This document shows, one piece after another, positions 5,216-27,500 of a stretch of 64,000 nt of DNA. How positions within the stretch are numbered: the stretch's first letter is position 1; every line of letters begins with the position of its first letter. A model generated the notes under the pieces. That model had not been told where the DNA came from. It did no database searches and saw nothing but the letters and a program-made list of their open reading frames with translations. The stretch is taken from assembly GCA_029448655.1 (NCBI GenBank), contig JACCLO010000013.1:496001-560000 (forward strand). Reading direction: 5' to 3'. Source of the stretch: Wolfiporia cocos. Its lineage: Eukaryota; Basidiomycota; Agaricomycetes; Polyporales; Phaeolaceae. Made by a program: the position numbers and the translations under genes.

Positions 5216-6659
5216 TTACGAGGCTAGCAGTAAATACAAAGCGGCGTACCACAGGATGCAAAATATCACAAGGAAAACACGCAAAGAAAGGTGTGAGGGG
5301 AGGGTGGAAGAGAAGACGGCGTCGTCGCTAAAGGCGCCAGCGACAGCGGGCTGGTAATGGACGAGAGAAGGTGCAAAGGCGGCGGCGCTAACGCGCGGTG
5401 AAATCTTGCGCTCGCTCGCCCAGACGCTGGGGCCGGCCGAACCCTCGCCCAGGTGGGAGAGGCCGGCCCCGCCAATAATTGTCCCTCTCTCTGTTGCCTT
5501 GAACAGAACCCTATGCTTGTGGACTCCCACACACTGAGGGCTCTGGCGGCGAAGTTTGGGCAGTTTTTGAATTAGCTGGTCATATGTAATCGCCTCAATG
5601 GCGTGCCCCCGCAATGCTTTGAGCAGATTATGCGTGAATAGACCACATTTCACGCCCTCATTTGTTGTCTCGTGTGCATATTCTGTTTCGTGGCAGGCAG
5701 CGAGCATGACGTGAGAAGTCACCTCTGAATTCAGGAATGAATTCGTAGAGCTGGAGAGGATTGCATGGAGCGCGTCCGGGTCACGGTTCCAGATGTCCTG
5801 ATCCAGATCTGCTGGCAACGAGGCAAGCTCGCCGATGGCTACCGACGAACGCACAGTTGCTGTGCCTCTGGCCAGACCACCTGAGAAGCAGGAATCGAAG
5901 ATCGTGACCTATCACTGAGAGTGAATATCTGCGCTGCAATGTAACATTAAAGATACAAACGATATTGTCGCCCCTCCGACGAGATAACTGAGCCATCAAT
6001 ATCGCGATCGTGCGATCAGGAATTCCATAAATCAGGGTCCCGTCCTTCTGCATCCCTTCGTCATAGGGTCGGATAGTTTCCACCTCGCTACCCTGCGGTG
6101 CCCAGCATTCAGGAGCCGGTACTTGGCTGCCATGGCCCGCAAAGAAGACGATCATAACATCTCCTTTGAGGATCTCCTCATTCTGCAAGAGATGGCCATC
6201 AATGGCTCCGAGAATGGCATCCCTGGTAGCGGATTCGTTGTGGAGGGAACGTATATTTCGCTTGGGTACACCCAGGTTCTCCAGCAGGAAAGCTTCAAAA
6301 TTCTTGCAGTCGTTGATACATCCGGATAAACCGGAAATGTCTTTGTCACTATACGTGTCGATCCCCACGAGGAGGGCGAAGATTTGATATGAATAGGATG
6401 ATAGTGCAGTGCCGCGATCATTGACCTGTATGCAGTTGACATAGGATGGGGATGCAATCTCGTCGTTTGAGGGAGGAGGGGCTCTGGATAAGATCAGACG
6501 AGGTTTTACTAATATCAAGAGCAAAGTATCATCGCGTACATACAATGGTGGATTGGAGGTGGTTGATGTTCGTGCCGCGATATCTCCACATGTCGTGCGT
6601 ATCCTAGGAGAGTAATGTGTTGAGGTATTCGAACACGAGCTGGAGAGTAGTATTAACAT
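5216..6659 (-). CDS. Caspase-like protease (metacaspase, peptidase C14)
   Basis: Exon 1 is 6659-5961 and exon 2 is 5908-5216, joined by a 52-base GT-AG intron (5909-5960) that keeps the frame. The product of about 463 residues has a caspase-type domain from about residue 93 (FALLVGIDTYSD). The catalytic His lies in FFAGHGS (about H176) and the catalytic Cys in IFDSCFSGG (about C240, created across the splice). The rest of the fold follows (HVMLAACHETEYAHE, then GLFTHNLLKALRG). The C terminus ends in a hydrophobic stretch (LRVFLVIFCILWYAALYLLL), a possible membrane anchor. The first 90 residues are low in similarity; a possible 60-base in-frame intron near codons 39-59 makes the true N terminus uncertain. 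Metacaspases cleave after Arg/Lys and act in stress and cell death; both dyad residues are present, so activity is plausible. Related broken pieces lie at 40416-41371. Confidence 0.85.
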
Positions 6660-7810: not shown

Positions 7811-8365
7811 TTTTTTTTTTTAAAGTACATTTGTATCCCGCGTCAAGTAACTACGACTAAATGCGGCATTAGTGGGCGGAAGGCGGGGCTTTTGGGATGG
7901 GGCGGATAGGGTTATGCGTTCGGTAGACCATGTGTAGGGAGGTGCGAATGCGATGGTATCTAAGGGAGTTCAGGTAGGTCTCCATGCGGGACTTACCCTG
8001 GGTCGACAACAACGGTAGGGGGGGCTGCGGACCTCGCGAATGCCGTAGTGGCCTTGAGGAACAGCGCGATGGCGTTGAGGCCCTTCGGCGTGGACAGAAG
8101 GACGCGGACGTTCAGCGATTGGGAGGCGGCGCGCAGGTGGTGGCGTGCATCAGCATGCAGGGGGCAGTCAACGAGGATGTGCTCCCGTGTCTGCAGGGTT
8201 GTCCCGTCACATGGGCAGTGAGGGGACTCAGACGGGACGAAACGGCGGTAGTATTCCCCGAAATGGCCGTGGCCAAGGCTAAGCTGGACAATGCGAGCAT
8301 GTACGTGTCGGGGCCCTGTGTAGGTCCGGTGAAAACGGGAGAGTCGGAGTGATGGGGCGTCGGTC
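7811..8365 (-). mobile_element. LINE retrotransposon, 3' part with poly(A) tail
   Basis: On the minus strand this ends in a run of 12 A (7810-7821 as T on plus) next to the target duplication. The coding part (frame 7993-8391) reads FHRTYTGPRHVHARIVQLSLG, then HGHFGEYYRRFVPSE, CPCDG and QTREHILVDCPLHADARHHL, a cysteine/histidine-rich C-terminal region typical of fungal non-LTR elements after their RNase H domain. About 180 bases of 3' UTR follow. The 5' remainder is at 20439-20517 beyond the Helitron array. The insertion is strongly 5'-truncated (about 630 bases in all) and cannot be autonomous. Confidence 0.8.
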
Positions 8366-8577
8366 AGGGCGACGACGACGACACCGAGCATCAGCGAGGT
8401 GGAGGAAGTGGCTGAGCGGGCAGAGAACGAAGGACAGGTGCAGCAGGGTGATCACACACCCTGGAGGTTGGGTGGACTCATAATGTCTCCATCCAGTGTG
8501 TTTTTCCCTTATTCTATTAGTTATCTCACTTAAGTGACAATTGATATTCGTGGCGAAGCCATGGGTAATTAAACTCG
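8366..8577 (+). mobile_element. Helitron unit 0, 3' end only
   Basis: Matches the last 200 bases of unit 8 (20235-20438): CACCGAGCATCAGCGAGG, GTGGCTGAGCGGGCAGAGA, a tract with ATCACACACCCTGG, then a GTGGCGAAGCCAT hairpin, GGGTAATTAAA and CTCG. The 5' end is not recognised. The terminal tetranucleotide is CTCG rather than CTAG, as in unit 8. The junction to unit 1 (TAAGTAACGGGGGCTCGCG) has lost a few bases relative to the other junctions. Confidence 0.7.
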
Positions 8578-9806
8578 TAAGTAACGGGGGCTCGCGTGGG
8601 AGCGGTCGCGTGGAGCGCACCTGGCGTCCACGTTTGCCGCGTGGCATCCATGGGCGTCATTCCTGCTCCCATTAGATAGGGCGCCTGGCGCCGGTGAATT
8701 CCCACGCCCAGCGCCTGCAAGGCGCGCTGCTAGCTCGCGTTTTGCGTGCTGTTCCTGCCCTGCACCACGGGGATTCGTGCCACGGGGATTCATACCCCAC
8801 ACCACGGGGATTCGTGCCCCACACCACGGGGATTCGTGGCACATTCCATGGGGGTTTGTGGCCCATGCCACAGGGATTTGTGTCCTGTGGCATGGGGATT
8901 TTGTAATGTAAATACCCCACACCACGGGGATTTGTACCCCGTGCCACGGGGATTCGTGCCCTACACCACAGGGATTTTTGGCCCATGCCATGGGGGTTTG
9001 TGCCCCATGCCATGGGGATTTGTGCCCCATGCCACGGGGATTTGTGTCCTGTGGCATGGGGATTTTGTAATGTAAATACCCCACACCATGGGGATTTGTA
9101 CCCTGTGCCACAGGGATTTGTACACCAATTCCACAGGGATTTGTGCCACATGCCATGGGGATTTGTGCCCTGTGCCACGGGGATTTTTGTAATGTAAATA
9201 CCCTACACCATGGGGATTTGTGGCCCATGCCACAGGGATTTGTGTGTCCTGTGCCATGGGGATTTGTGCCCTGTGCCACGGGGATTTTGTAATGTAAATA
9301 CCCCACCCCACGGGGATTTGTACCCCATGCCACAGGTATTTGCACCCCAATGCCACGGGGATTTGTGCCCCATGCCACAGGGATTTGTGCTCTGTATCAT
9401 GGAGATTTGTGCCCCATGCCACGGGGATTTGTGCTTTGTGCCACGGGGATTTATGCCTCATGCCATGGGGATCTTTGTAACATAAATGGCCTGTGCTGTA
9501 GATGCCTGCCAAAAGATTGCAAAAAAAAATGAAGAACATTTTGACACCACATTACACAGTATTACAAGCAAAGCGATGATGAGACCGAGGATCAGCGAGG
9601 TGTCAGAAGTGGCTGAGCAGGCAGAGACAAGAGACAAAAGAGGGAAGTTGGGGAAGCTATGGGTAATGCACATGAAATTCATAGGGGATCCACAGGTAAC
9701 TTAATAAAACCCCTAATTATCTGAAATAGGCACACATGGATTGGAATAATATATTGAAGTGGAAAAAGCGGTGTGACCGTGGCGAAGCCACGGGTAATTA
9801 ACCTAG
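8578..9806 (+). mobile_element. Non-autonomous Helitron unit 1 (type A)
   Basis: Starts with a GTAACGGGGGCTCGCG variant of the common 5' end, passes through a region with GATAGGGCGCCTGGCGCC, then a long 22-base minisatellite, then the shared 3' part and hairpin CCGTGGCGAAGCCACGG (about 9777-9793) ending CTAG at 9803-9806. Same architecture as unit 6. Confidence 0.85.
8765..9480. repeat. 22-base minisatellite in Helitron unit 1
   Basis: Repeats of the type CACGGGGATTTGTGCCCCATGC run almost without break. At irregular intervals a GTAATGTAAATACCCCACAC spacer makes a higher-order unit of about 100-165 bases. Because 22 is one more than a multiple of three and the unit contains no stop codon in any phase, long frames stay open on both strands in all phases; these are not considered genes. 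Confidence 0.95.
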
Positions 9807-10580
9807 TCCATAAAGTAAGGGGAGCTCGCGCCGTAGGCGCTCGCGTGCCGCTAGCGTGTCGCTCGCGTGTCGCTCGCGTTTTGCACACATGGACGCCACG
9901 TTTGCCGCGTGGCGTCCATGCGCGTCGTTGATCCTCCTCCCATTAGATAGGGCGCCTGCCCGCGGAGTTGGCCGGTGGATTCCCACGCCCGGCGCCTGCA
10001 AGGTGCGCGCGCTGTTCCTGCCCCGCACCACGGGGATTCGTGCCCCATGCCACGGGGATTCGTGCCCCATGCCACGGGGATTCGTGCCCCACACCACAGG
10101 GATTTGTGGCCCATTCCATGGGGGTTTGTGGCCCATGCCACAGGGATTTGTGTCCTGTGGCATGGGGATTTTGTAATGTAAATACCCCACACCACGGGGA
10201 TTTGTACCCCGTGCCACGGGGATTCGTGCCCTACACCACGGGGATTTTTGGCCCATGCCATGGGGGTTTGTGCCCCATGCCACGGGGATTCGTGCCCCAT
10301 GCCACAGGGATTTGTGTCCTGTGGCATGGGGATTTTGTAATATAAATACTCCACACCACAGGGGTCTGTACCCTGTGCCACAGGTATTTGCACCCCAATG
10401 CCACAGGGGTGAATTCCCACACTCAGAGCCTGCAAGGCATGCGTGCCAGTTACAGATTCTACAAGCAAAGCGACAACGATACCGAGCATCAGCGAGGTGG
10501 AGGAGTGGCTGAGCAGGCAGAGACTAAAATATATTCCTAAGACATAACGTTTGTGGCGAAGCCACAGGTAATTAAGCTAG
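9807..10580 (+). mobile_element. Non-autonomous Helitron unit 2 (type B)
   Basis: Begins TCCATAAAGTAAGGGGAGCT directly after the CTAG of unit 1 and ends with GTGGCGAAGCCAC, AGGTAATTAAG and CTAG (10577-10580). A shorter 22-base minisatellite lies at about 10020-10405. Close in sequence to unit 4. Confidence 0.85.
10020..10405. repeat. 22-base minisatellite in Helitron unit 2
   Basis: Same 22-base unit as in unit 1, with about 17 recognisable repeats and one GTAATGTAAATAC spacer. The frames open across it are repeat artefacts. Confidence 0.9.
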
Positions 10581-10864
10581 TCTAAGAGTAATGGGAGCTC
10601 GAGTGGGAGCCGTCGCGTGTCGCTAGCGTGTCGCGCACGAGAATCGCACATGGCGAGCACGTTTGCTGCGTGGCGGCGCCTGTAGGGCGCCCATCGAGTG
10701 CGCGCCGGCGCCTGCAAGGCGCGCGTGCCGGTTGCAAAGGTATTACAAGCGAAGCGACGACGAGGCCGAGCGTCAGCGAGGTGGAGGAGTGGCTGAGCGG
10801 GCAGAGATATATAATAACTCCTAGAAATACAAAATTGTGGCGAAGCCACAGGTAATTAAGCTAG
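10581..10864 (+). mobile_element. Non-autonomous Helitron unit 3 (type C, 284 bases)
   Basis: A minimal unit: 5' end TCTAAGAGTAATGGGAGCTC, a GGCGCCTGTAGGGCGCC palindromic core, the shared CGAGCGTCAGCGAGGTGGAG block, the GTGGCGAAGCCAC hairpin and CTAG at 10861-10864. No minisatellite. Likely close to the minimum substrate for mobilisation in trans. Confidence 0.85.
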
Positions 10865-11658
10865 TCCATAAAGTAAGGGGAGCTCGCGCCGTAGGCGCTC
10901 GCGTGCCGCTAGCGTGTCGCTCGCGTGTCGCTCGCGTTTTGCGCACATGGACGCCACGTTTGCCGCGTGGCGTCCATGCGCGTCGTTGATCCTCCTCCCA
11001 TTAGATAGGGCGCCTGCCGTCCGCGGAGTTGGCCGGTAGATTCCCACGCCCGGCGCCTGCAAGGTGCGCGCGCTGTTCCTGCCCCGCACCACAGGGATTC
11101 GTGCCCCATGCCACGGGGATTCGTGCCCCATGCCACGGGGATTCGTGCCCCATGCCACGGGGATTCGTGCCCCACACCACGGGGATTCGTGGCCCATTCC
11201 ATGGGGGTTTGTGGCCCATGCCACAGGGATTTGTGTCCTGTGGCATGGGGATTTTGTAATGTAAATACCCCACACCACGGGGATTTGTACCCCATGCCAC
11301 GGGGATTCGTGCCCTACACCACGGAGATTTTTGGCCCATGCCATGGGAGTTTGTGCCCCATGCCACGGGATTCGTGCCCCATGCCACAGGGATTTGTGTC
11401 CTGTGGCATGGGGATTTTGTAATATAAATACTCCACACCACAGGGGTTTGTACCCTGTGCCACAGGTATTTGCACCCCAATGCCACAGGGGTGAATTCCC
11501 ACACCCAGCGCCTGCAAGGCATGCCGGTTACAGATTCTACAAGCAAAGCGACAACGATACCGAGCATCAGCGAGGTGGAGGAGTGGCTGAGCAGGCAGAG
11601 ACTAAAATATATTCTTAACACATAATTTTTGTGGCGAAGCCACAGGTAATTAAGCTAG
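10865..11658 (+). mobile_element. Non-autonomous Helitron unit 4 (type B)
   Basis: 5' end TCCATAAAGTAAGGGGAGCT, minisatellite at about 11085-11490, hairpin and CTAG at 11655-11658. Nearly the same as unit 2 along its whole length, apart from one or two extra 22-base repeats and small changes, so one is probably a recent copy of the other. Confidence 0.85.
11085..11490. repeat. 22-base minisatellite in Helitron unit 4
   Basis: Same repeat as units 1, 2 and 6. Repeat number differs from unit 2, indicating expansion or contraction after copying. Confidence 0.9.
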
Positions 11659-11977
11659 TCTGAACTATAATGGGAGCTCGCGCCGTAGGCGCTCGCGTGC
11701 AGCTAGCGTGTCGCTCGTGTGCAGCTAGCGTGTCACTCGCGTGTCGCTCGCGTTTTGCGCACATGGCGAGCACGTTTGCCGCGTGGCGGCGCCTGTAGGG
11801 CGCCCGTCGAGTGCGCGCCGGCGCCTGCAAGGCACGCGTGCCGGTTGCAAAGGTGTTACAAGCGAAGCGACGACGAGGCCGAGCGTTAGCGAGGTGGAGG
11901 AGTGGCTGAGCGGGCAGAGATAAGCAATACAAGTTCTAATTACAAAATTGTGGCGAAGCCACAGGTAATTAAGCTAG
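11659..11977 (+). mobile_element. Non-autonomous Helitron unit 5 (type C)
   Basis: 5' end TCTGAACTATAATGGGAGCT, tandem GCTAGCGTGTCGCTCG-like words, the GGCGCC palindromic core, hairpin and CTAG (11974-11977). Same type as unit 3 but longer by about 35 bases because of extra short GTGTCGCTCG repeats. Confidence 0.85.
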
Positions 11978-13113
11978 TCTATAAGTAATGGGAGCTCGCG
12001 TGGGAGCCGTCGCGTGCCGCTAGCGTGTCGCGCACGAGAATCGCACATGGCGAGCACGTTTGCCGCGTGGCGTCCATGCGCGTCGTCAATCCTGCTCCCA
12101 TTAGATAGGGCGCCTGGCGCCGGTGAATTCCCACGCCCAGCGCCTGCAAGGCGCGCGCGCTGCTAGCTCGCGTTTTGCGCGCTGTTCCTGCCCCGCAGCA
12201 CGGGGATTCCTGCCACGGGGATTCATACCCCACACCACGGGGATTCGTGCCTCACACCACGGGGATTCGTGGCCCATCCCATGTGGGTTTGTGGCCCATG
12301 CCACAGGGATTTGTGTCCTGTGGCATGGGGATTTTGTAATGTAAATACCCCACACCACGGGGATTTGTACCCTGTGCCACAGGGATTTGTATGCCAATTC
12401 CACAGGGATTTGTGCCCTGTGCCACGGGGACTTTTGCCCTGTGCCACGGGGATTTTTGTAATGTAAATACCCTACACCATGGGGATTTGTGGCCCATGCC
12501 ACAGGGATTTGTGTGTCCTGTGCCATGGGGATTTGTGCCCCATGCCACGGGGATTTGTGCTCTGTGCCATGGAGATTTGTGCCCTGTGCCATGGGGATTT
12601 GTGTCCTGTGCCACGGGGATTTGTACCCCATGCCACAGGTATTTGCACCCCAATGCCATGGGGATTTGTGCCCCATGCCACAGGGATTTGTGCTCTGTAT
12701 CATGGAGATTTGTGCCCCATGCCACGGGGATTTGTGCCCTGCCACGAGGATTTTTGTAACATAAATGGCCTGTGCTGTAAATGCCTGCCAAAATATTTCA
12801 AAAAATGAAGAACATTCAGTATTTTTTGACACATGGCATTACACATTATTGCAAGTGAAGTGACGACAACACTGAGCATCAGTGTGGTGGAGGAGTGGCT
12901 GAGTGGGCAGAGACAAGGAACAGAAGAGGGGAACCCATGGATAATCCACAGGAAATTGATGGGGAATCCACAGGTAAGTTCAAAAAAACCTTGCTTTGTG
13001 TGTGAATGGTCTGAATTCCCCCGGTTATCTCAAATAGGCACACACGGATTGGGATATGATATTGAAGTGATTAAACTATGTGTCCGTGGTGAAGCCACGG
13101 GTAATTAAGCTAG
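11978..13113 (+). mobile_element. Non-autonomous Helitron unit 6 (type A)
   Basis: 5' end TCTATAAGTAATGGGAGCTC, minisatellite at about 12195-12760, a tail starting AAATGGCCTGTGCTGTAAAT shared with unit 1, hairpin CCGTGGTGAAGCCACGG and CTAG at 13110-13113. Its first 140 bases are almost identical to the start of the autonomous unit 7, so they belong to one mobilisation family. Confidence 0.85.
12195..12760. repeat. 22-base minisatellite in Helitron unit 6
   Basis: Same repeat and higher-order GTAATGTAAATAC spacing as unit 1. All long frames over it are artefacts of the repeat. Confidence 0.9.
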
Positions 13114-13678
13114 TCTAAGAGTAATGGGAGCTCGCGTGGGAGCCGTCGCGTGCCGCTAGCGTGTCGCGCACGAGAATTGCACATGGCGAGCACGTTTGCC
13201 GCGTGGCGTCCATGCGCGTCGTCAATCCTGCTCCCATTAGATAGGGCGCCTGCCACCCGGGGAGTTGGCCGGTGGATTCCCACGCCCAGCGCCTGCAACG
13301 CGCGCACCGCGTTTGGCGAAAACCCGCGCATTTCGCGTTTTGCACGTCTTCCTGACCGCGCGCTGCAATAATTTCGCTACCGCTGTAATCTACATAGGTA
13401 TTACAGTACATCTATGCAATAAAAAAATCGGTGCCAAAAACGTACAGGGGGGCCCCACCAAAACTCGAGTAGGTGGACACGGGTGGATGGAGGTGTTAGG
13501 CTTTCCCTGTCACAACAGTGACAAACAATGCCCCCTGCCTACCCTGTGGGGGAGTGGGACAAGAGACATTGACACACTACATTGGTGCAATAACAGACAT
13601 ATTACCATCTGTAATAAGCTGTTGAAAGCCCCTACACAGTCATTGCTTATCTGTGAGCTCATAAGCAACCTCCCCCAC

Positions 13679-14040
13679 ACTTGCTTGGGCAACACAACAT
13701 ATTGTGGGTTGTTATAACATGCTGGCATTGGGTTCTATGGCTAATGGGTCGATGCACATAGATCTCCTCAATATTTGAGGAGCTGATAAGTGACCTTCCT
13801 CACACTTGCTTGGACAACACAACAAATTGTGGGTTGTTATAACATGCTGGCAGTGGGTTCTTTGACACTTATGGGTTGATGCACATAGATCTCCCCAATC
13901 TTTGAGGAGCTGATAAGCGACCTTCCTCACACTTGCTTGGGCAACACAACATACTGTGGGTTGTTATAACACGCTGGCAGTGGGTACTTTGGCACTGATG
14001 GGTCGATGCACATAGACTTCCCAAATCTTTGAGGCAACAA
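13679..14040 (+). repeat. Tandem repeat, about 126 bases, nearly three copies
   Basis: Copies start with ACTTGCTTGG at 13679, 13804 and 13931 and contain GTGGGTTGTTATAACA, GATGCACATAGA and GAGGAGCTGATAAG. They lie between the Helitron 5' terminal region and the Rep-helicase start, where promoter or leader sequence would be expected. Confidence 0.9.
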
Positions 14041-14105
14041 TTCTCATATCATCACACAAAAAATACATTCATAATGTATGGATTCTGCTCTGCCAGACAC
14101 ACTGA

Positions 14106-17100
14106 ATGCTGAAGGTTACAATCTGTTGTAGGGATCCTCCCTCTACACCAGAACATGACCGAGAGGAACATAGGGCACAGGATCGGGAAGCACGTCTGCA
14201 AATGACACCGCCATCTGTGCGACGTCAGCGATTGCAGATGAGGCAACCCTTTCCACAGCCTAACTTTGCCTTGCACCACCCTCATGGGGAACATGGTATC
14301 GCAAGTGCATTTGTTCCTCAAAACCAGCCCATGGCTGGACCCTTACAACAAAATCAGGCTATTGCTGGACCACCATATGATGTCCCTGTTGCAGGTCCTT
14401 CTAATCTGCATAACGTTCCTTGGAACACATCCCGGATACGTAGCTGGCATCCTGAGCTGGGTCGGCCTTTGCAGTCGAACCAACCAGTACCTGGACCATC
14501 CCACATGCCTGATCCACATGCTACATATCATTGGCCCCCTGCAAACTCAGCGCATGTACCTCCACGGCGTGATTGGCGGGCAGAACTTGAACATGGTTTC
14601 AACGAAAGCCATGCTAGCAGAGTGCGTGCACGCAGACATAATCAGGAATTGTCCATTCCATCCACACCACACATGCTGGCACCTTCGTCCTCTGTAGGCA
14701 GTCGCTATCAGACATTATTGGTGCAACGCAGAAATCATGACACCCATGTCAGAGATCAGCAAAGGATTGTGCAGCAGACGCATGAACACCAGGTTGAACG
14801 TCAAGCAGCACTTGCTAATGACACACGGCTGATCGAAGAGGCCAGACTGCAAATGGAGATCCAGCAGCACGCAGAACTTGCTGATGACATACAGCTGATT
14901 GACCAGGCCAGATTCCAAAGGGATATGCAGCAGGGTGCAGCAGTAGCTGATGACATGCAGCTAATTGAACAGGCCCGGCTGCAAAGGGAGATCCAGCAGC
15001 ATGCAGCACTTGCTGATGACATGCGGCTGATCGAACAGGCAAGACTCCAAAGGGAGTTGCAGCAGCACCAAGAGTTTCAAGTCCTACAAAATATCCCTTT
15101 GGGAAGGCAGCCTTATGTTGAACCAGCAGACCGTCACTCCATTGGAAGGATGGACATACAATGTCCACACTGCCATGCATTGCACTGGAAAGGCGAGCGC
15201 TTGAAGTCGTCCACTAACACCAGCCACAGGTTTGGTGTGTGTTGCCTTCAGGGCCAGGTGGATCTGCCTCCTATACAACAGCCTCCCGCAGCATTACGCC
15301 GACTGTTCATGGGTGTGGATCCCCGCTCTCGATCATTCCGGGACAAGATCCGGCAGTACAACAATGCCTTCGCATTCACGTCTGTTGCTGTCAATGTCGA
15401 TAATGCCATCCTCAATGGCTCAGGCCCATACTCCTTTAAGATACACGGTGCTCTGTACCACAAAATGGGAAGCCTCCTTCCGCCAGAGGGTCTTCAGCCA
15501 TCATATGCACAGCTCTATATACATGATCCTCAGGCTGCCCTGGATACCCGCAATACGCGGAATCACAATCTGGATCCAGGAATCATGGGCGAGCTGCAGG
15601 TCGTATTTGAGGAGCATAACCCCTTTGTTCCTCTCTACCGCCGTGCCTTTGAGATCCTACAGGCAAAGCCACCGGAAGAACAGCTCAATGTGCGGGCCCA
15701 CATAATGCTGCAGCATACTGCAGACAGACGGCGTTATAACCTCCCCACCACAGATGAGGTCGCAGCGGTGATTCCAGGCAGTGGCGATGAAGATGTTCAA
15801 AGACATAGAGACATTATCCTCCGGCTCCGTGGTGGTAACTTGGAAAAGATCAGCAACATACACCCGCTCTATTCTCCATTGCACTACGTGCTGCTGTTTC
15901 CACATGGTGACCAAGGATGGCACCCCTTGATACCCTCAGGAGCAGGCCCTCAAGGACAGATGCGGAGCCCAAAAGTCTCTGAACAATGCTTCTATGCCTA
16001 CCGCCTACACCCCCGCATCGTCAGACATGAAGATGTGGTTGTGGGGTTTGACTATCTCTTCCGTGGGGGACGTCTCTTTCAGCAATACGTTGTGGATGCG
16101 TGGGCTTCCATTGAGGCCAGCAAGCTTCACTGGGTGCGGAACAATCAAAGGCAGATCCATGCAGACCTCTACAATAGTGTAAGGGATGCCCTTGATGCTA
16201 ACGACAATGTTCCAGACCTCAGCCAACAGGGACAGCGGATCATTCTGCCCTCCTCCCATCTGGGAAGTGCACGGCATATGTATCAGCTGCTTCAGGACTC
16301 CCTGGCCATTTGCCGATATTGCCGCAAACCTGACATATTCCTCACGATGACGGCCAACCCTAAGTGGCCTGAAATACAGGATGCATTGCTGGAGCTGGAT
16401 GCTGATGAAGATAATCCTGGACGGCCACGGAAGAGGCAAATGGCAGCAGACCGTCCTGATATTGTGGCCCGTGTGTTCCATCTGAAGCTCCAGGCCTTGA
16501 TCAAGCTGATCAAGGATGGCTTCTTTGGTGAGCTGGCTGGGGATGTCTACACCATTGAATTTCAGAAGCGAGGGCTGCCTCATGTCCACCTTCTGATTTT
16601 TCTGAAAGATCTCTACAAGATCCGAGATGGTGGCCAAGTGGACAACATCGTGTCTGCACAGCTTCCCTGCCAGGAGACCCAGCCAAAGCTCTATGACACG
16701 GTCACAAAATGCATGCTCCATGGGCCATGTGGGGATGATAACCCTCATGCTCCATGCATGGTGGACAGGGCCTGCTCCAAGCGTTATCCAAAGCAGTTTT
16801 GTGAGGACACCCAGTTTGGAGAGGATGGGTATCCCACCTACACACGCCCTGACAATGGCCGTTCGCACGTCAACTCCAGGGGTCACCGTCTTGACAATCG
16901 TCATGTTGTTCCCTACAACCCTCACCTCACTGCAATGTTGGACTGCCATATCAATGTGGAGATTTGCACTTCCATCAGGGCAGTGAAGTACATACATAAG
17001 TATATCTACAAGGGGCATGACCGTGCCACCTTGGAGGTTGGACAGGTTGACGAGGTAAAACAATACATTGACGGACGCTACATTGGACCTGTGGAGGCAT

Positions 17101-19427
17101 TTTGGCACATTGCAGAATTTCCCATGCATGAGGAAAAGCCTTCTGTATACCGGCTGACCGTACATCTCAAGGACGAGCAGATGATATTCTTTGCTGGGGG
17201 AGACAACCCCCATGAAGTTGCTGACCGTCCATCCTCGACAAAGACCCAGCTCACAGAATGGTTCACGGCAAACCGAGATCTTCCAGGGGCAACACAGCAT
17301 CTGTATCAGGATTTCCCACAGCACTTTGTGTGGGATGCAAGGTCCCGCACATGGAAGGTCAGGCAACGGGACTTCTCAATAGGCAGGATGGCCTTTGTGC
17401 ACCCTTCAGCTGGTGAAAAGTTCTACCTACGGCTCCTGCTCACGGTGGTGAAGGGTGCCACCTGCTGGGATGACCTCTGCAAGGTCAATGGGGTTGCATA
17501 CCCAACCTTCAAGGCCGCATGCTCTGCCCGTGGACTTCTGGAGGACGATGGGGAGTGGGCACTGTGCTTGGAGGAGGCAGCAGACATGCAGTCAGGATCA
17601 CAGCTACGCAATCTGTTTGCAATACTCCTCACCCATTGTCATCCTGTGGAGCCTGCCAACCTCTGGACCCGGTTCAGGAATAACATTTGCGACGACCTAC
17701 GACCCCGAGTTGTTGCTTATGGGCATGAGGATCCCACGGAGGAACAGGTCTGGGACCTGGGACTGTTCCTTCTCAATCATATACTGCTCAAGTATGGAAG
17801 GCGGCTAACAGACTTTCCACCTATGCCCCTCCCTCAGGCACAATGGGAGCCTCCACATGTAAATCTCATCCTTCAAGAGGAACTTGCCTATGATGATGCA
17901 GAGCTTGCTGTTGAGGTGGAGGTGGACAGGGAGCACTTCAATCCAGAGCAGGCAAATGCCTATGATGTGGTCCTACAATCCGTCCTACAGCAAGAGGGGA
18001 AAATATTCTTCCTCCACAGTGCAGGTGGTGGTGGCAAGACATTCACATGTAATGCCATTGCTTCTGCAGTTCGTATGCATAGGAAGGTGGCACTCTGTGT
18101 TGCATCCTCTGGGATTGCATCATTGCTCCTCATTGGTGGACGCACAGCTCACTCCCGCTTCAAAATACCCATAGCGGTTCATGAGACTTCGACCTGCCAT
18201 ATCCCCAAGAACAGCAATCTGGCTGATCTCATACGGGAAACAGGGATTGTCATATGGGACGAGGCACCCATGCAGCATCGCCATGCCATAGAGGCGGTGG
18301 ACCGGACCCTCCGTGATATCCTGGACAAGGACGTACCATTTGGTGGAATTACCATGCTTTTTGGAGGCGACTTCCGACAGACACTACCTGTGGTTCCCAG
18401 AGGCACAAGGGAGCAGATTGTATCCGCTTCCCTGAGGAGGTCATATCTGTGGAGGCACATTCAGGTCCTTCATCTTACACAGAACATGCGGCTTGACCGC
18501 ACACCTGCAAGTGACGCTTTTGCACAGTGGTTGCTGAATGTCGGCGCAGGAGACCCTAGGTCTTCCCAGAACAATGTCTCTCTTCCAGAGAGCATGAGGC
18601 TGGCTGACAATACGGTTCAAGGATTGGTGGACGCTGTTTATCCTGGAATTGCTGAAGGAAACAAGTCCGATCAATACTTCCTCGAACGGACAATTCTGTG
18701 TGCCAAAAACGATGCGGTGGCAGAACTCAATGCCTTCATACTGGACAGGTTCCCAGGAGAGGAGGTTGTGTTGACAGGGTCCGACAAGGTTGTAGGTGTA
18801 GAGGACGAGCACTATCCTGTTGAATACCTCAACTCGATCACGGTCTCCAGCCTACCCTTGGCTCATTTAGCTCTCAAGCCAGGTTGTCCTCTGATGCTTC
18901 TCCGGAACATCGATCCAGCCAATGGCCTCTATAATGGAACACGGATGATTCTGATGTCAATACGACCTCATATACTTCAGTGCCGGATATTAGGAGGAAG
19001 CCATGCTGGAAAGGTGGTCTACATCCCCCGGATAACTCTGGAGCCATCTGCCCAAGATCTCCCCATTTCCATTTCCCGTCGGCAATTTCCTGTCCGCCTT
19101 GCATTTGCCATGACCATCAACAAGTCCCAGGGCCAGTCGGTCATGCATGTGGGATTGGATCAACGTGTTTCTGTGTTCTCTCATGGCCAGCTCTATGTTG
19201 CTCTATCACGGTGCACGGCGGCAGAGCGTATCAAAGTCCTGTTCCCACCAGATTCAGAGAGTACCAGCACAGCGAACATTGTCTACCACGAGGTGCTTTC
19301 AGGCCTGTTGAACAATTGGTATGCACACTTGCAGCATTTGGGATGCCTTCAATGGTCTGACTTATTTCTCAGAGGATGCTTTGGGGTGTGTGGATTAATG
19401 GAGGGATGGTTACCATACTGGCTGTGA
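14106..19427 (+). CDS. Helitron Rep-helicase (RepHel), 1773 residues
   Basis: A single intronless frame. Residues about 230-320 carry four tandem 23-residue coiled-coil repeats (xxADDxxLIEQARLQREIQQ type). A CPHC...CC zinc-finger-like region follows (IQCPHCHALHW). The Helitron-like N domain includes YVLLFPHGDQGWHP. The HUH endonuclease motif is LPHVHLLIF (H826, H828) and the two catalytic tyrosines are in KYIHKYIYKG (Y962, Y966). The Pif1-type SF1 helicase part shows Walker A AGGGGKT (1306-1312), Walker B WDEAP (D1385), FGGDFRQ, INKSQGQS and YVALSRC. All motifs needed for rolling-circle strand nicking, transfer and unwinding are present, so it looks functional. The ATG at 14106 is followed by CTGTTGTAG, which could also be a splice acceptor; the true start may lie upstream. 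No OTU or RPA module was noticed. Confidence 0.95.
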   Translation: MLKVTICCRDPPSTPEHDREEHRAQDREARLQMTPPSVRRQRLQMRQPFPQPNFALHHPHGEHGIASAFVPQNQPMAGPLQQNQAIAGPPYDVPVAGPSNLHNVPWNTSRIRSWHPELGRPLQSNQPVPGPSHMPDPHATYHWPPANSAHVPPRRDWRAELEHGFNESHASRVRARRHNQELSIPSTPHMLAPSSSVGSRYQTLLVQRRNHDTHVRDQQRIVQQTHEHQVERQAALANDTRLIEEARLQMEIQQHAELADDIQLIDQARFQRDMQQGAAVADDMQLIEQARLQREIQQHAALADDMRLIEQARLQRELQQHQEFQVLQNIPLGRQPYVEPADRHSIGRMDIQCPHCHALHWKGERLKSSTNTSHRFGVCCLQGQVDLPPIQQPPAALRRLFMGVDPRSRSFRDKIRQYNNAFAFTSVAVNVDNAILNGSGPYSFKIHGALYHKMGSLLPPEGLQPSYAQLYIHDPQAALDTRNTRNHNLDPGIMGELQVVFEEHNPFVPLYRRAFEILQAKPPEEQLNVRAHIMLQHTADRRRYNLPTTDEVAAVIPGSGDEDVQRHRDIILRLRGGNLEKISNIHPLYSPLHYVLLFPHGDQGWHPLIPSGAGPQGQMRSPKVSEQCFYAYRLHPRIVRHEDVVVGFDYLFRGGRLFQQYVVDAWASIEASKLHWVRNNQRQIHADLYNSVRDALDANDNVPDLSQQGQRIILPSSHLGSARHMYQLLQDSLAICRYCRKPDIFLTMTANPKWPEIQDALLELDADEDNPGRPRKRQMAADRPDIVARVFHLKLQALIKLIKDGFFGELAGDVYTIEFQKRGLPHVHLLIFLKDLYKIRDGGQVDNIVSAQLPCQETQPKLYDTVTKCMLHGPCGDDNPHAPCMVDRACSKRYPKQFCEDTQFGEDGYPTYTRPDNGRSHVNSRGHRLDNRHVVPYNPHLTAMLDCHINVEICTSIRAVKYIHKYIYKGHDRATLEVGQVDEVKQYIDGRYIGPVEAFWHIAEFPMHEEKPSVYRLTVHLKDEQMIFFAGGDNPHEVADRPSSTKTQLTEWFTANRDLPGATQHLYQDFPQHFVWDARSRTWKVRQRDFSIGRMAFVHPSAGEKFYLRLLLTVVKGATCWDDLCKVNGVAYPTFKAACSARGLLEDDGEWALCLEEAADMQSGSQLRNLFAILLTHCHPVEPANLWTRFRNNICDDLRPRVVAYGHEDPTEEQVWDLGLFLLNHILLKYGRRLTDFPPMPLPQAQWEPPHVNLILQEELAYDDAELAVEVEVDREHFNPEQANAYDVVLQSVLQQEGKIFFLHSAGGGGKTFTCNAIASAVRMHRKVALCVASSGIASLLLIGGRTAHSRFKIPIAVHETSTCHIPKNSNLADLIRETGIVIWDEAPMQHRHAIEAVDRTLRDILDKDVPFGGITMLFGGDFRQTLPVVPRGTREQIVSASLRRSYLWRHIQVLHLTQNMRLDRTPASDAFAQWLLNVGAGDPRSSQNNVSLPESMRLADNTVQGLVDAVYPGIAEGNKSDQYFLERTILCAKNDAVAELNAFILDRFPGEEVVLTGSDKVVGVEDEHYPVEYLNSITVSSLPLAHLALKPGCPLMLLRNIDPANGLYNGTRMILMSIRPHILQCRILGGSHAGKVVYIPRITLEPSAQDLPISISRRQFPVRLAFAMTINKSQGQSVMHVGLDQRVSVFSHGQLYVALSRCTAAERIKVLFPPDSESTSTANIVYHEVLSGLLNNWYAHLQHLGCLQWSDLFLRGCFGVCGLMEGWLPYWL

Positions 19428-19991
19428 TGGTATGCATGATCTACCACATCCAATCCATTGCTGACTCTTGAATACAGGATTTGTGTGCTGTGGAGAAGGA
19501 AGATCTGTGGTCAAATGAGGCCATGGCTATTGAGTTCAGCAAAAATGGTACGTGTTTGATCTCATAGGTGCACACATAGCTGACTTGAGATGATAGGACT
19601 TGGGATTGGGTTGACAAGAAAGTATGGTTGGACTTAGAATGTCTCTGTCCGGTATGCTCTTCATTTATTCTGTTTGTTATATGCTTATGTGTTTGACTTA
19701 GGATTCCTCAAGAACTGTGAAACATTAGTGTAGATGATGTGTTTGTAATTGATTGGTGTTTGCTATGAATGTTATCAAAAATGCCCTACTTTGTGCGTGA
19801 ATGGTGTGACTTTAGGGCAGGCTTGAGAGAACTTGAAATGTGGTTCCCTTGACTTTAGGGCAGGCTTAAGAGGACTTGAATGAGCTTCTGGAATTGATCT
19901 CATATAAGGACATGGATTGAGATATCATGATATCTAAGAGACTAAGTACTGAAACTGTGTGCCGTGGCGAAGCCACGGGTAATTAACCTAG

Positions 19992-20438
19992 TCTAAGTAC
20001 TAAAGGGCCGTGGAAGAAAACCATGTGGTTCTCGCGTGGCAACCGTGCGTTCATTGGCCCGTAGGGCGCGCGCCACCATCTCCGTGCCATTTCCCACGGA
20101 CGGCGCCTACAGTTTCGCGCGTCCTCCCTGTGCGCCACGGGGATTTTATTGTAACGTAAATGGCCTATACTGTAGATACCTGCTGGAAAATTCAAGAGTA
20201 ACCGGAAGGTTTATGAGTTACCACAAGCGAAGTGACGACGACACCGAGCATCAGCGAGGTGTCGGAAGTGGCTGAGCGGGCAGAGACAAAGGACAGAACT
20301 TCGGCAGGTGCAGCAGGGTGATCACACACCCTGGGGGTGGGTGGACTCGCATTACAATATGTTCTTCCCTTATTCTATTCGTTATCATACTCAAGTGACA
20401 ATTGACATCCGTGGCAAAGCCGCGGGTAATTAAACTCG
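19992..20438 (+). mobile_element. Non-autonomous Helitron unit 8
   Basis: Starts TCTAAGTACTAAAGGGCCGT right after the CTAG of unit 7, contains one residual CACGGGGATTT minisatellite unit (about 20140) and AAATGGCCTATACTGTAGAT, and ends GTGGCAAAGCCGC, GGGTAATTAAA, CTCG (20435-20438), followed by T. Its 3' half equals unit 0. It is the right edge of the array, where LINE sequence resumes. Confidence 0.8.
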
Positions 20439-20517
20439 TGATAGGGAGGGCGGGACGACTGACCGGCACGTAACTGCCTGCCTTGCCAGGCTATCTGCGC
20501 GCTCGTTTCCCTGGACT
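20439..20517 (-). mobile_element. LINE retrotransposon, 5' truncated end
   Basis: The minus frame reads GNERADSLARQAV, the last conserved block of a LINE-type RNase H domain. It begins exactly at the 14-base target duplication (20518-20531) and continues, across the Helitron array, into the C-terminal region at 8391-7993. Together the two parts form one short 5'-truncated insertion. Confidence 0.75.
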
Positions 20518-23536: not shown

Positions 23537-24598
23537 TCAGAGTGCCTCGGCGTCCTGCTCGTTGTAGATGTCGCCGTTCCCGCTGAGGGACGGGGTCGTA
23601 GGAGTTCGCCATACGAAGTGTTGGCGGCATTCATTCTGTCGATGACCTGGTTGATTGAGCCCACAAGTTCTGCAAATATAATCGGGGCAGTCGAGGATCC
23701 AGTGGTTAGCGGAACCACATTGTCGACACGGCTGCTCAGGTGAGGGCCTCGCTGGTACCCGTAGGGAAGGGATATCGCGGAGGTATTCGTTATGTTGGTA
23801 CCTCCAGTGGTGTGCGGCTCGGTGGAGGTTTCGTGCGGCCCATGTTGGTAGGGAGGCGGTGTCTCGTTCGTGCTCCCTCACACCTCGCTCAAACTCCTCG
23901 CGGGTAATACTCTGCACTGAAGGAGATCGTCGAATAGGCGGCGTGCTATTCGCTCTTCGCTGTCGCGCTGGGGTAGCCCTAGGGCTCGTCGGGCGTGCAG
24001 GTGGTTCACATCTCCCGTTGCCTCCCATACCAGGAATACGTGGCGTCGGGTCTCTAACTCCTGTTCGGCGGGCCCTCTGAGTCTCGGTAGGCAGCGGAAA
24101 TAATACTCTATCGCCCTCCATAAAATCAAACGGCCTTGCAACTCGGCGTCGTTCGTCGGGGGTGAAAAAGCGGGCGGGTCGCGGTGTGTATTCGGGTCGA
24201 CTGGGAGCAACGTGCTCGCGATCCTCGAAGTCGTTGAGCGCGTGTCGTAGTCGGGCAGTCGTGGTGGCGGCCAATCGGTCGATAAGTCTGTCGGTGAGTA
24301 GCTCGAGTCCCTCTCTCTGCGCTCTGATCTGCCCCTCCATTCGGACGAGGTCCTCGGTGATGTTCTGGTACGAGCTGTAAACGTGGGTGAGGTCCTGCGC
24401 GATGTCAAAGAGGGCCGACCAGCCATCGGCTCGGCCAGCAAAAGGTCCCTCGGCCCTGTACCAGAGGAGGGCGTGTCTAATCTGCAGATGCTGGGGGGAG
24501 TACCTTCTTGGTGGCGTACCTCGCGGTCGGCCTTCTCGACGATCTGCATCGCCGGGGGTCGTGGTACGGCGGGGGAGCTGGTGGCGAGTCGTCGACAT
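23537..24598 (-). CDS. ORF3, zinc-knuckle protein overlapping the pol 3' end
   Basis: The probable start is the ATG at 24598 (MSTTRHQLPRR); the frame is open upstream to another ATG at 24766 inside the chromodomain region. About 353 residues: an N-terminal basic part, a probable coiled coil (IRAQREGLELLTDRLIDRLA), a low-complexity Pro/Arg/Thr-rich middle, and two zinc knuckles near the C terminus, CRQCGSANHWILDC (CX2CX4HX4C) and CRTCGLNQPGHRQNEC (CX2CX6HX4C). It lies between the chromodomain and the 3' LTR on the coding strand, in a frame different from pol, which is also open down to 23878. It looks like a second nucleic-acid-binding protein of the element, distinct from gag. Function unknown. 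Confidence 0.75.
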   Translation of the reverse strand: MSTTRHQLPRRTTTPGDADRREGRPRGTPPRRYSPQHLQIRHALLWYRAEGPFAGRADGWSALFDIAQDLTHVYSSYQNITEDLVRMEGQIRAQREGLELLTDRLIDRLAATTTARLRHALNDFEDREHVAPSRPEYTPRPARFFTPDERRRVARPFDFMEGDRVLFPLPTETQRARRTGVRDPTPRIPGMGGNGRCEPPARPTSPRATPARQRRANSTPPIRRSPSVQSITREEFERGVREHERDTASLPTWAARNLHRAAHHWRYQHNEYLRDIPSLRVPARPSPEQPCRQCGSANHWILDCPDYICRTCGLNQPGHRQNECRQHFVWRTPTTPSLSGNGDIYNEQDAEAL

Positions 24599-27500
24599 AC
24601 TATTACTGTCCTGTTTTCGAGTGTTGGGGTTGTCCTGACTCTCGTCCTGTGGTAGTCTTTTATCAGCTCCTTGGAGTGCTCCAAGTTCGCCTCGTCTTCC
24701 CATGAATTGTCGGCCGTGGCATAGCCTTTCCACTTGACGAAGTATTGATGCTTCTTTCCTTTCCATCTGTCAGCCAAGATGGCTTCGACCTCGTATTCTT
24801 CCTGTCCCTCGATGACATCAGGTGGCGGCCGTAAGTAATTGGGTCCGTGCACCCTTGTTTCTTTGAATGGTTTTAGTAAGGCGGCGTGGAATACCGGATG
24901 AACTTTCCAGCTTGTTGGTAATTGCAGCCGGTATGTCGTGGGTCCCATCTTTTCTGTGATAGTGAAGGGTCCTTCCCTTTTTGGTGCCAGCTTGTTAGAT
25001 TCGTAGGGGATAGTTAGGTTCTTTGCGTCGAGCCAGACCTTATCCCCTTTCTCAAGCTTCGGCAGTTCTCTGAGGAACCGCCCCGCCATTCTTTTCTGGG
25101 CTAATTCATGCGCGATGAATGCCATCTTTCGCGCCTCTTTGATCTTCTTGATCCTGTCGACAGCTGCCGGGACGTTCCCTACTCTGTCATAGTCTGGGAA
25201 TCCTCTCGGGACATATCCTAAGATTATTTCGAGTGGCGCTGGCCGGTTTTCGGTTCGTCTGGTGTTGTGCGCAAATTCGACGTCAGGCAGTCGTTGTACC
25301 CATTGGAACGGGTCGTTCATGCAATAGATGCGAAGGTATACTTCGATTTGTTGATTCATTCTTTCTGTCTGTCCGTCGGTCTGTGGATGGTATGCCGTAC
25401 TCATCGCTGATTCTGTTCCCTGCAGCTTGCATAATTCCTTGAAAAGCTTTGATGCAAACTGCGGTCCTCTGTCTGAAATGATCTTTCGGGGGATGCCATA
25501 TAGCGAGTAGATTTTCCGGTGAAATATCTCTGCTGCCCCTTCGCTAGTGATCGTTTTGTCGCATGGGGTGAGAGAGATGGCCTTGGATAGGCCATGGTCA
25601 ACAATCACCATCATGGAGTCATACTTTCCGACTCTTGGCAGGTCGGTGACAAAATCGACCGAGCACTGTGAGAAGGGGAGGGTGTCTTCCCGTGTCGGTA
25701 TTGGTTGCAAAGGGGGTTTTAGCGGATTCCTATCAGGTTTCATCTGTTGACAGATTGCACAGCCCCAGACGTATTCCGCTATCATTGTTCTCATGTCAGG
25801 CCACCAAAAGTGGGTCGTAACCTGTACTGTTGTACCCCAGATCCCAGGGTGTCCGGCCGGGTTCGTGTCGTGGTATTTCGAGATGACGTCCCGTCGAAGG
25901 CCCTCATCCTTCGGCACGTACATCCTGCCCCTGTAGAGCAGTATCCCATCCGTTTGTTGCCATTCATCTGCGGTGGTTCTCGCGGGGAATTCGCCTGTGC
26001 CCCCTAGAGCACGGATCGCCTGTTCCGCAGATTCATCTCGATCGTTGGCGTTCTTGATTCGATCGATGATCGGGATCTGGATTGCGTGGACGACGAGTTC
26101 ATCTGGAATCATGGTGATTCCCTCGTTGTCTTCGTTGCTTTCGTCCAGGTGGTACAACCTGGAAAGCGTGTCAGCCATGACTAGTTTCCTTCCGGGGACG
26201 TGCTGCAATTTCAGGTCGAATTGCGAAAGGAATAGATGCCATCTCGCTTGTTGCCGATTTAGGCGCTGTGCGCTTCTCCAGTACGTCAGGTTCTGATGAT
26301 CACTTCGGATCAAGATCCGATGCGGTGCTCCTTCCAATAGGTGCCGCCATTCTTCTAATGCTCGGACTATCCCGAGTAGTTCGCGATCGTAGATTTCGTA
26401 GTTCCGTTCTGTTGGTGTCAGGGATTGTGAGAGATATCCCACCGGCCGTTCGCTCCCTGTTTCATCTATCTGTTTCAGTACTGCTCCTGTGGCGAACTGA
26501 GATGCATCTGTTTCGAGGATGAACGGTTTCTCCTTATCTGGTGTTCCTAGTACGGGCGCCGTCGTGAATGCTTTCTTCATGAATTCGAATGCTTTCTGTT
26601 CTTTCTCCGTCCATTGGAACCCTGTCCCTGTGACCGTTTTTGTGAGGTCTACCAAGGGTCGGGCATGCGTAGAGTAGTGATCGATAAATTTCCGATAGAA
26701 GTTCGCAAATCCTAGGAAGGATCTGACTTCTTTGAGATTTCGGGGAGTCGGCCACTCCTTAATCCCATTGAGTTTCGCTGGGTCCATCTGGATATTTCCT
26801 GGGGTGATGACTAGTCCCAGAAATTCGACTCTGTCGACACCGAAGGCGCATTTCTCGGGTTTCACAAAGAGATGGTTATCCACCAGTCTCTGAAGGATCC
26901 GCCGCTCCCGTTCCTTGTGTATTTTCTCGTTTCCTGAGAAGATGAGGATGTCGTCCATATAAACAAGCACCCATCCTTCGAGGATTTCTTCTTTCAGGAT
27001 TTCGTTCATCATTGCCTGAAAGGTTCCGGGTGCATTGCATAATCCGAAAAACATAACCGTGGGCTCGTACAACCCTCGGTTTGTTTTGAAGGCTGCTTTC
27101 CATTCGTCTCCTTTTTTGATTCGCACGTTGTTGTATCCCGCTCTAAGGTCCATTTTCGTGAAGATCTTTGCTCCTTTTAGCTTTTCCAGGAGCTCTGAGA
27201 TCAGTGGCAAGGGATAGACGTTCTTTATCGTCCCTTCGTTCAGATATCGATAATCTTGACAGGGTCGTAGGCCGCTGTCTTTCTTTGGGACGAAAAAAAA
27301 TGGTGACGCCATCGGGGATTTTGAAGGGACTATGAATCCTTTGGCCAAGTTTTCTTTTAGGAATTTGTCCAGCGCCTGTTGCTCTTTAGGCGAGAGTGCA
27401 TAGACTTTGCAGTCTTTCAGCACGAAATCGGGTTTTAATTCGATTGCGTGGTCCCATGGTCTCGACGGGGGGAACGCTGCTGCGGACTCCTTACTGAACA

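Follow-up and report, generated by a model that had tools for sequence, protein, structure and literature searches.

The Helitrons of Wolfiporia cocos pile up on one another: head-to-tail stacks, in which the 3′ end of one unit abuts the 5′ end of the next, are the usual state of this family in the genome. We consider it quite probable that the stacks consist of canonical Helitrons added by successive insertions, each at the A|TC junction of a resident element. One such stack lies in a stretch of 64,000 nucleotides (the window; C5:496001-560000), within a 64.4 Mb genome assembly of 76 contigs. It occupies positions 8375-20438 or thereabouts and comprises eight Helitron units and one 3′ fragment, all in a single orientation:

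8375..8577, + strand: 3′ part of an S-long Helitron with an ACTCG end; the 5′ part is absent, along with 83 bases of flank
8577/8578, + strand: join of the S-long fragment to unit A1, as if 4 bases inside the A1 5′ end
8578..9806, + strand: unit A1, a non-autonomous G-class Helitron; first bases (probably TCTA) absent
9807..10580, + strand: unit B1, a non-autonomous Helitron of 774 bases
10581..10864, + strand: unit C1, a non-autonomous Helitron of 284 bases
10865..11658, + strand: unit B2, 794 bases, 98% identical to B1
11659..11977, + strand: unit C2, 319 bases, of a subtype that differs from C1
11978..13113, + strand: unit A2, 1136 bases; a unit of the array at C1:1736144 (contig C1) matches it at 99.6% identity over 94%
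13114..19991, + strand: autonomous Helitron of 6878 bases
14106..19427, + strand: RepHel open frame, 1773 aa
19992..20438, + strand: S-long Helitron, the 3′-most unit, with head TCTAAGTACTAAAGGG and tail ACTCG
20439..20517, + strand: 79-base right flank of the array, found unchanged at seven further places

A preliminary description had proposed seven direct CTAG|TC junctions (9806/9807, 10580/10581, 10864/10865, 11658/11659, 11977/11978, 13113/13114 and 19991/19992), and all seven are confirmed to the base. The hairpin said to precede each of them is the exact GTGGCGAAGCCAC at six, whereas the junction before 13114 has GTGGTGAAGCCAC; the distance from hairpin to CTAG, put at about 11 bases, is 11 by count. 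The last 3′ end of the array is CTCG rather than CTAG (20438). The succession of unit types A-B-C-B-C-A holds for the B units, which are close (98% identity over 97%), but C1 and C2 turn out to be different subtypes (91% over 88%); A1 and A2 are 91% identical over 86%. The first full unit, A1, has no TC start. Position 8578 opens TAAGTAACGGGG, as if 4 bases into a TCTATAAG start, and is directly preceded by another element (about 8375-8577) whose 3′ end is ACTCG.

Units A and B (8760-9480 and like stretches) are, by eye, mostly a short minisatellite around CCACGGGGATTTGTGCC, so that the long minus-strand reading frames found there are probably spurious. Upstream of the array, a metacaspase-like gene (Peptidase_C14; 5781-6656, minus strand) is apparently split over two frames or exons. 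In a Ty3/gypsy-like pol frame at 23878-28545 (minus strand), a weak protease-like match and the reverse transcriptase flank a dUTPase domain, and the integrase is followed by a chromodomain. A second frame also ending in dUTPase, at 33591-35483 (minus strand), lies beside a reverse-transcriptase-like frame, as judged by eye.

The elements of the window are canonical Helitrons (Helitron1), with TC start, hairpin, CTAG end, A^T target and RepHel. All eight units begin with TC except A1, which is cut near its start. At the 3′ side, hairpin and CTRR occur with 11-base spacing in 381 exact ends genome-wide; the CTCG tail of the S-long subfamily departs from CTRR. A T follows 379 of the 381 exact ends. 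The features of Helentrons (Helitron2) are not seen: the target is A^T and not T-rich (TT), and terminal complementarity is absent, the latter by eye only. The intact RepHel unit of the preliminary description is borne out by the 1773-aa frame with nuclease and helicase domains (Helitron_like_N, PF14214; PIF1, PF05970; Pif1_2B), in which the motifs HVH and GGGGKT occur and a YIHKY pair was read by eye. The protein that best matches its Rep part comes from Grifola frondosa (67% identity across residues 640-1140) and points to a polypore-like basidiomycete as the probable host. The first 787 bases of the autonomous unit have at least 15 other genome matches of >700 bases (40 of 528 candidates scored).

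The window stack sits at one A^T, because copies of the flanking repeat join there without any array. The right flank recurs unchanged at seven places, two of which were fetched. These two empty copies align to window positions 7876-8374 (or 7922-8374) and 20439-20517; that is, they match up to 8374, placing the left border of the stack near 8374/8375, and resume from 20439. Between the matched parts they read GAGCCA^TGATAGGG, with no Helitron. At the left end of the stack, a deletion has cost the first element its 5′ part and the repeat 83 bases. Insertion between A and T without duplication, as originally supposed, is supported both by this empty site (CCA^TGAT) and by the 379 T-followed ends. 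Four further stacks that could be read through both ends (L069-L072) likewise start after A and end before T. The right-hand repeat loses its match to other copies after 79 bases (20517/20518), a second breakpoint near the array, and no second full-length copy of the right flank was found in this assembly.

How common are such stacks? Across the 64.4 Mb genome there are 381 exact copies of the 28-base 3′ end, against 0 of its reversed control. TC follows 313 of the 381 ends, and TA, TG or TT follows 66. These genome-wide ratios are pattern counts alone and detect only exact copies of the hairpin. Loci in hand comprised the first 30 listed ends (contig C1), the first 30 TD ends, loci around matches to the autonomous unit and the flank, and chosen stacks; ratios of host to array within them are biased, the resulting sample of 90 distinct exact ends being enriched for TD ends. 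Sixty of these 90 are TC-followed, and 58 of the 60 run into a Helitron head. Among the 30 non-TC ends, 19 have no head-like motif within 26 bases and 11 do; the 11 comprise off-register joins and at least one motif that is apparently due to chance. The stack near C1:1.736-1.767 Mb has 23 3′ ends (one degenerate) across three fetched stretches with two gaps. The arrays at C12:2773384-2779796 and C29:19604-26016 are seemingly the same, with spacings equal within a base and no unit difference, and are perhaps a haplotig or segmental copy.

Repeats are hard to assemble, and an assembly artefact or a tandem duplication of host DNA might in principle mimic a stack. Distinct units with distinct neighbours at many loci speak against this, as does the position of the window within a 2.65 Mb contig. 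We reject the artefact on account of the empty copies of the flanking repeat, and regard it as exceedingly improbable.

A more familiar account would have the stacks arise as concatemers, with circle replication or read-through past CTAG yielding a multimer that is inserted whole. The exact CTAG|TC junction is indeed the circle junction reported for Helraiser, and one pair of neighbours, u010-u011, is identical. In a concatemer, however, neighbours should be copies of one another, and the stacks are mixed. Units were parsed with loci L039-L042 omitted as duplicates and autonomous copies (≥6.5 kb) left unparsed, giving 103 units, or 102 after removal of one duplicate; three with unclear tails were dropped from neighbour and pair comparisons, leaving 99. 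Close relatives make up 3 of 60 neighbour pairs, namely the identical pair and two S-S pairs, versus 6.3% of all pairs among the 99 units. The best match of a unit is its own neighbour in 2 of 120 cases, both within u010-u011 and each equalled by a copy elsewhere. Since neighbours are no more alike than random pairs, we reject concatemers as the main source of the stacks.

Insertions within resident 5′ ends, which concatemers cannot yield, point the same way. At three loci (L045, L049 and L063) an element has entered at an A^T 4-5 bases into a resident 5′ end, and both halves of the resident are retained. The residents of L045 and L049 begin TCATATAATAAAGGG and are interrupted at TCATA^TAATAAAGGG; TCATA now flanks the insert on its left and the remainder of the start on its right. 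The element in L063 lies in opposite orientation and interrupts the resident start at TCTA^TAAG; once its flanks are joined, they match bases 1-54 of the 5′ end of a unit at 85%. Concatemers are equally unable to produce the arrangement near C1:1763963, where an internal GGCGCCCTA^TCTAATGGGAGCAGG is occupied by two elements, head to tail; this internal mimic resembles a 5′ end and is uninterrupted in sister units. With neighbours that are not sisters, residents entered at their 5′ ends and an internal mimic targeted, the origin from circular or read-through products proposed at the outset is mostly unsupported, and we judge it unlikely.

Genome-wide, there are nine places where a 3′ end is joined inside a 5′ end, and the expected left half of the resident is seen only in L045 and L049. 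It was sought at L052, L068 and L079 and is absent there, so that a simple split reading fails for these three; their residents may have shortened 5′ ends. L043 is ambiguous; the three remaining places, the window, L077 and L078, have a left side that is deleted or lies beyond the sequence reached. Gapped junctions occur at 14 places, at least three of which look like duplicates of one array. Their spacers are all 3-5 bases long, where 2-26 were permitted, and at least some may be extended donor 5′ ends rather than near misses.

The outer ends of the stacks bear on the direction of growth. In a search blind to the preceding base, 21 of 24 distinct first 5′ ends, of stacks and of single copies, are preceded by A. 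The exceptions are two ends that follow CTAG (L048 and L060, the latter without a hairpin) and the cut resident of L063. On the reverse strand of L048, at about 679-710, an unrelated hairpin-like CTCAAGGCTTTGAG plus CTAG adjoins an S-class 5′ end, as if another Helitron family had also inserted at the left end. S-short heads, which fall outside the head pattern used for the 24 ends, are A|TC in 4 of 4 cases. Given A|TC at the first 5′ ends, growth on the 3′ side, which needs G^T, would violate the target rule of the family.

Units are also ordered by class, in agreement with growth on the 5′ side. S-class units lie 3′ of G-class units in 10 cases and 5′ of them in 1, an excess matched in 0 of 5000 shuffles. 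This count covers 102 units, without the S fragment of the window (an extra S-to-G case) and the junction from its autonomous unit to S (an extra G-to-S case); at the left end of the window array an S element stands 5′ of a G element, contrary to the usual order. S elements are seldom found at G heads (3 of 7 versus 54 of 65; Fisher p 0.03, small numbers), and the S fragment of the window adds one S-to-G case beyond the 3 of 7. ACTCG tails, of S-long elements, have C next in only 30 of 129 cases, which is near chance and differs from CTAG ends with a Fisher p of 3e-34. S-short copies are 98-100% alike, so the 3′ place of S units need not mean that the S class is old. No age gradient along stacks was detected with a crude measure (rank correlation of position with nearest-relative distance -0.07, p 0.58, 66 units), nor was a polymorphic allele one unit shorter found in this assembly.

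It might be argued that A^T beside TC is simply a hot spot, an open or AT-rich target that requires no recognition of the left end. The 5′ ends do appear locally AT-rich by eye, and the reverse insertion of L063 shows that a 5′ end can be entered in the other orientation. Yet a genome-wide pattern search, covering the TAATGGG head on one side, gave 0 exact head-to-head junctions (GA|TC), and on this result, limited pattern notwithstanding, we reject an unpolar hot spot. TC alone is not the attraction either, as host targets with TA, TG and TT are all used (66 cases) and only 2 of 60 TC ends lack a head. The scarcity of S elements at G heads, small as the numbers are, also disfavours a hot spot, and overall we give this explanation little credence.

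Might whole blocks of a stack be copied? RepHel could start at one left end, pass several right ends and so move part of a stack. Intact ordered pairs common to different loci mildly exceed expectation at 97% identity (5 versus 1.96 expected; 16 of 300 shuffles) and at 98% (2 versus 0.59; 33 of 300). Junctions of the form GCTA|TC, in which the terminal G is lost, number 19 genome-wide. Four such pairs were fully parsed. Three of them recur together, both members being 98.0-99.7% alike, which would be expected of a pair that has come to move as a single element; u062-u063 is unshared. On the other hand, pair sharing at 95% is near chance (8 versus 5.4; 57 of 300 shuffles), and successive units can diverge unequally, as in window units B2-C2-A2, which are 96.1, 97.5 and 99.6% identical to those of the contig C1 array. 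Some multi-unit block movement may occur besides single insertions, but as the general origin of stacks it seems improbable.

We therefore return to successive insertion at resident A|TC junctions. A Helitron that enters an A^T site would leave A|TC as its left end. If the next Helitron hit that A^T in the same orientation, the product would read A|TC...CTAG|TC..., and repeated steps would lengthen the stack on the 5′ side, with the A and T of the original site always remaining outermost. RepHel may recognise and nick left ends, which would explain why they are preferred. The 3′-OH of an arriving copy might then attack the nicked left end of the resident instead of its own, the latter being the reaction that forms circles; such an attack in trans would account for both the orientation and the base-exactness of the junctions. 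Loss of the terminal G (GCTA|TC) could fuse two units into a composite that moves as one, a route to chimaeras. We are evenly divided on a stronger form of this proposal, in which RepHel homes to resident left ends, the replication origin also serves as a polar site of integration by strand transfer in trans between two nicked left ends, and self-stacking is the main fate of new copies. If homing is true, each stack is an ordered record of insertions. The lack of an age gradient, the identical pair u010-u011, the mild over-sharing of pairs and the orientation of L063 are points against stepwise stacking. By landing on its own kind, a transposon would leave host genes untouched and would place unlike elements side by side, where they could fuse, and the present system makes the target choice of Helitrons directly testable.

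Adjacent Helitrons are already known from maize, bats and fungi, and tandem ones from plant centromeres. Tandem junctions of bat Helibat were reportedly described by Pritham and Feschotte in 2007, and Yang and Bennetzen are said to have noted in 2009 that Helitrons occur near other Helitrons. Among the published matches listed, where most subscription papers were beyond searching, none describes genome-wide dominance, polarity or split residents for Helitrons.

Among fungi, HELPO1 and HELPO2 of Pleurotus ostreatus (PMC4289320) are, like the elements here, basidiomycete RepHel Helitrons with an A^T target and a hairpin. They form clusters on chromosomes I and VII, and the available text of that paper, unlike our data, makes no mention of head-to-tail stacks. 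The self-insertion of FoHeli in Fusarium and a three-copy case in Metarhizium (PMC5148889) are presented there as single cases of Helitron2/Helentron-like elements, one inserted 2 bp upstream and one explained by self-insertion or rolling circle. The centromeric Helitron arrays of plants (Xiong et al. 2016, as cited in PMC5148889) are also tandem, but that citation describes them as truncated and attributes them to circles, whereas the stacks here consist mostly of full-length, mixed units and occur on many contigs.

The circles of Helraiser carry the same RTS-LTS junction, and Helitrons inserted directly beside each other were noted (PMC4778049, PMC5876387); head-to-tail junctions are cited as support for rolling-circle transposition (PMC5876387). 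For most junctions here, by comparison with bat Helibat and Helraiser as those sources portray them, the mixed units oppose multimers. The junction alone is thus no proof of a concatemer, because the same junctions in this genome seem to come mainly from separate insertions. The left end of Helraiser is described as essential (PMC4778049, PMC5876387), and precise joining of RTS to LTS by purified transposase, with cleavage at the junction, is reported or proposed (PMC5876387). Joining of this kind between two molecules would give A|TC...CTAG|TC.

Finally, maize Helitrons No.1 and No.2 (Du et al. 2008, PMC2267711) are adjacent and head to tail and, as here, share a CTAG|TC junction between unlike neighbours. 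The account given of that pair favours independent insertion, and one of the two routes it names is insertion at the A^T formed by the A of the host and the T of the resident. The maize case, as described, is a single pair whose order was left undecided; in W. cocos there are 313 TC-followed ends, and the split residents favour insertion at A^T, on the 5′ side.
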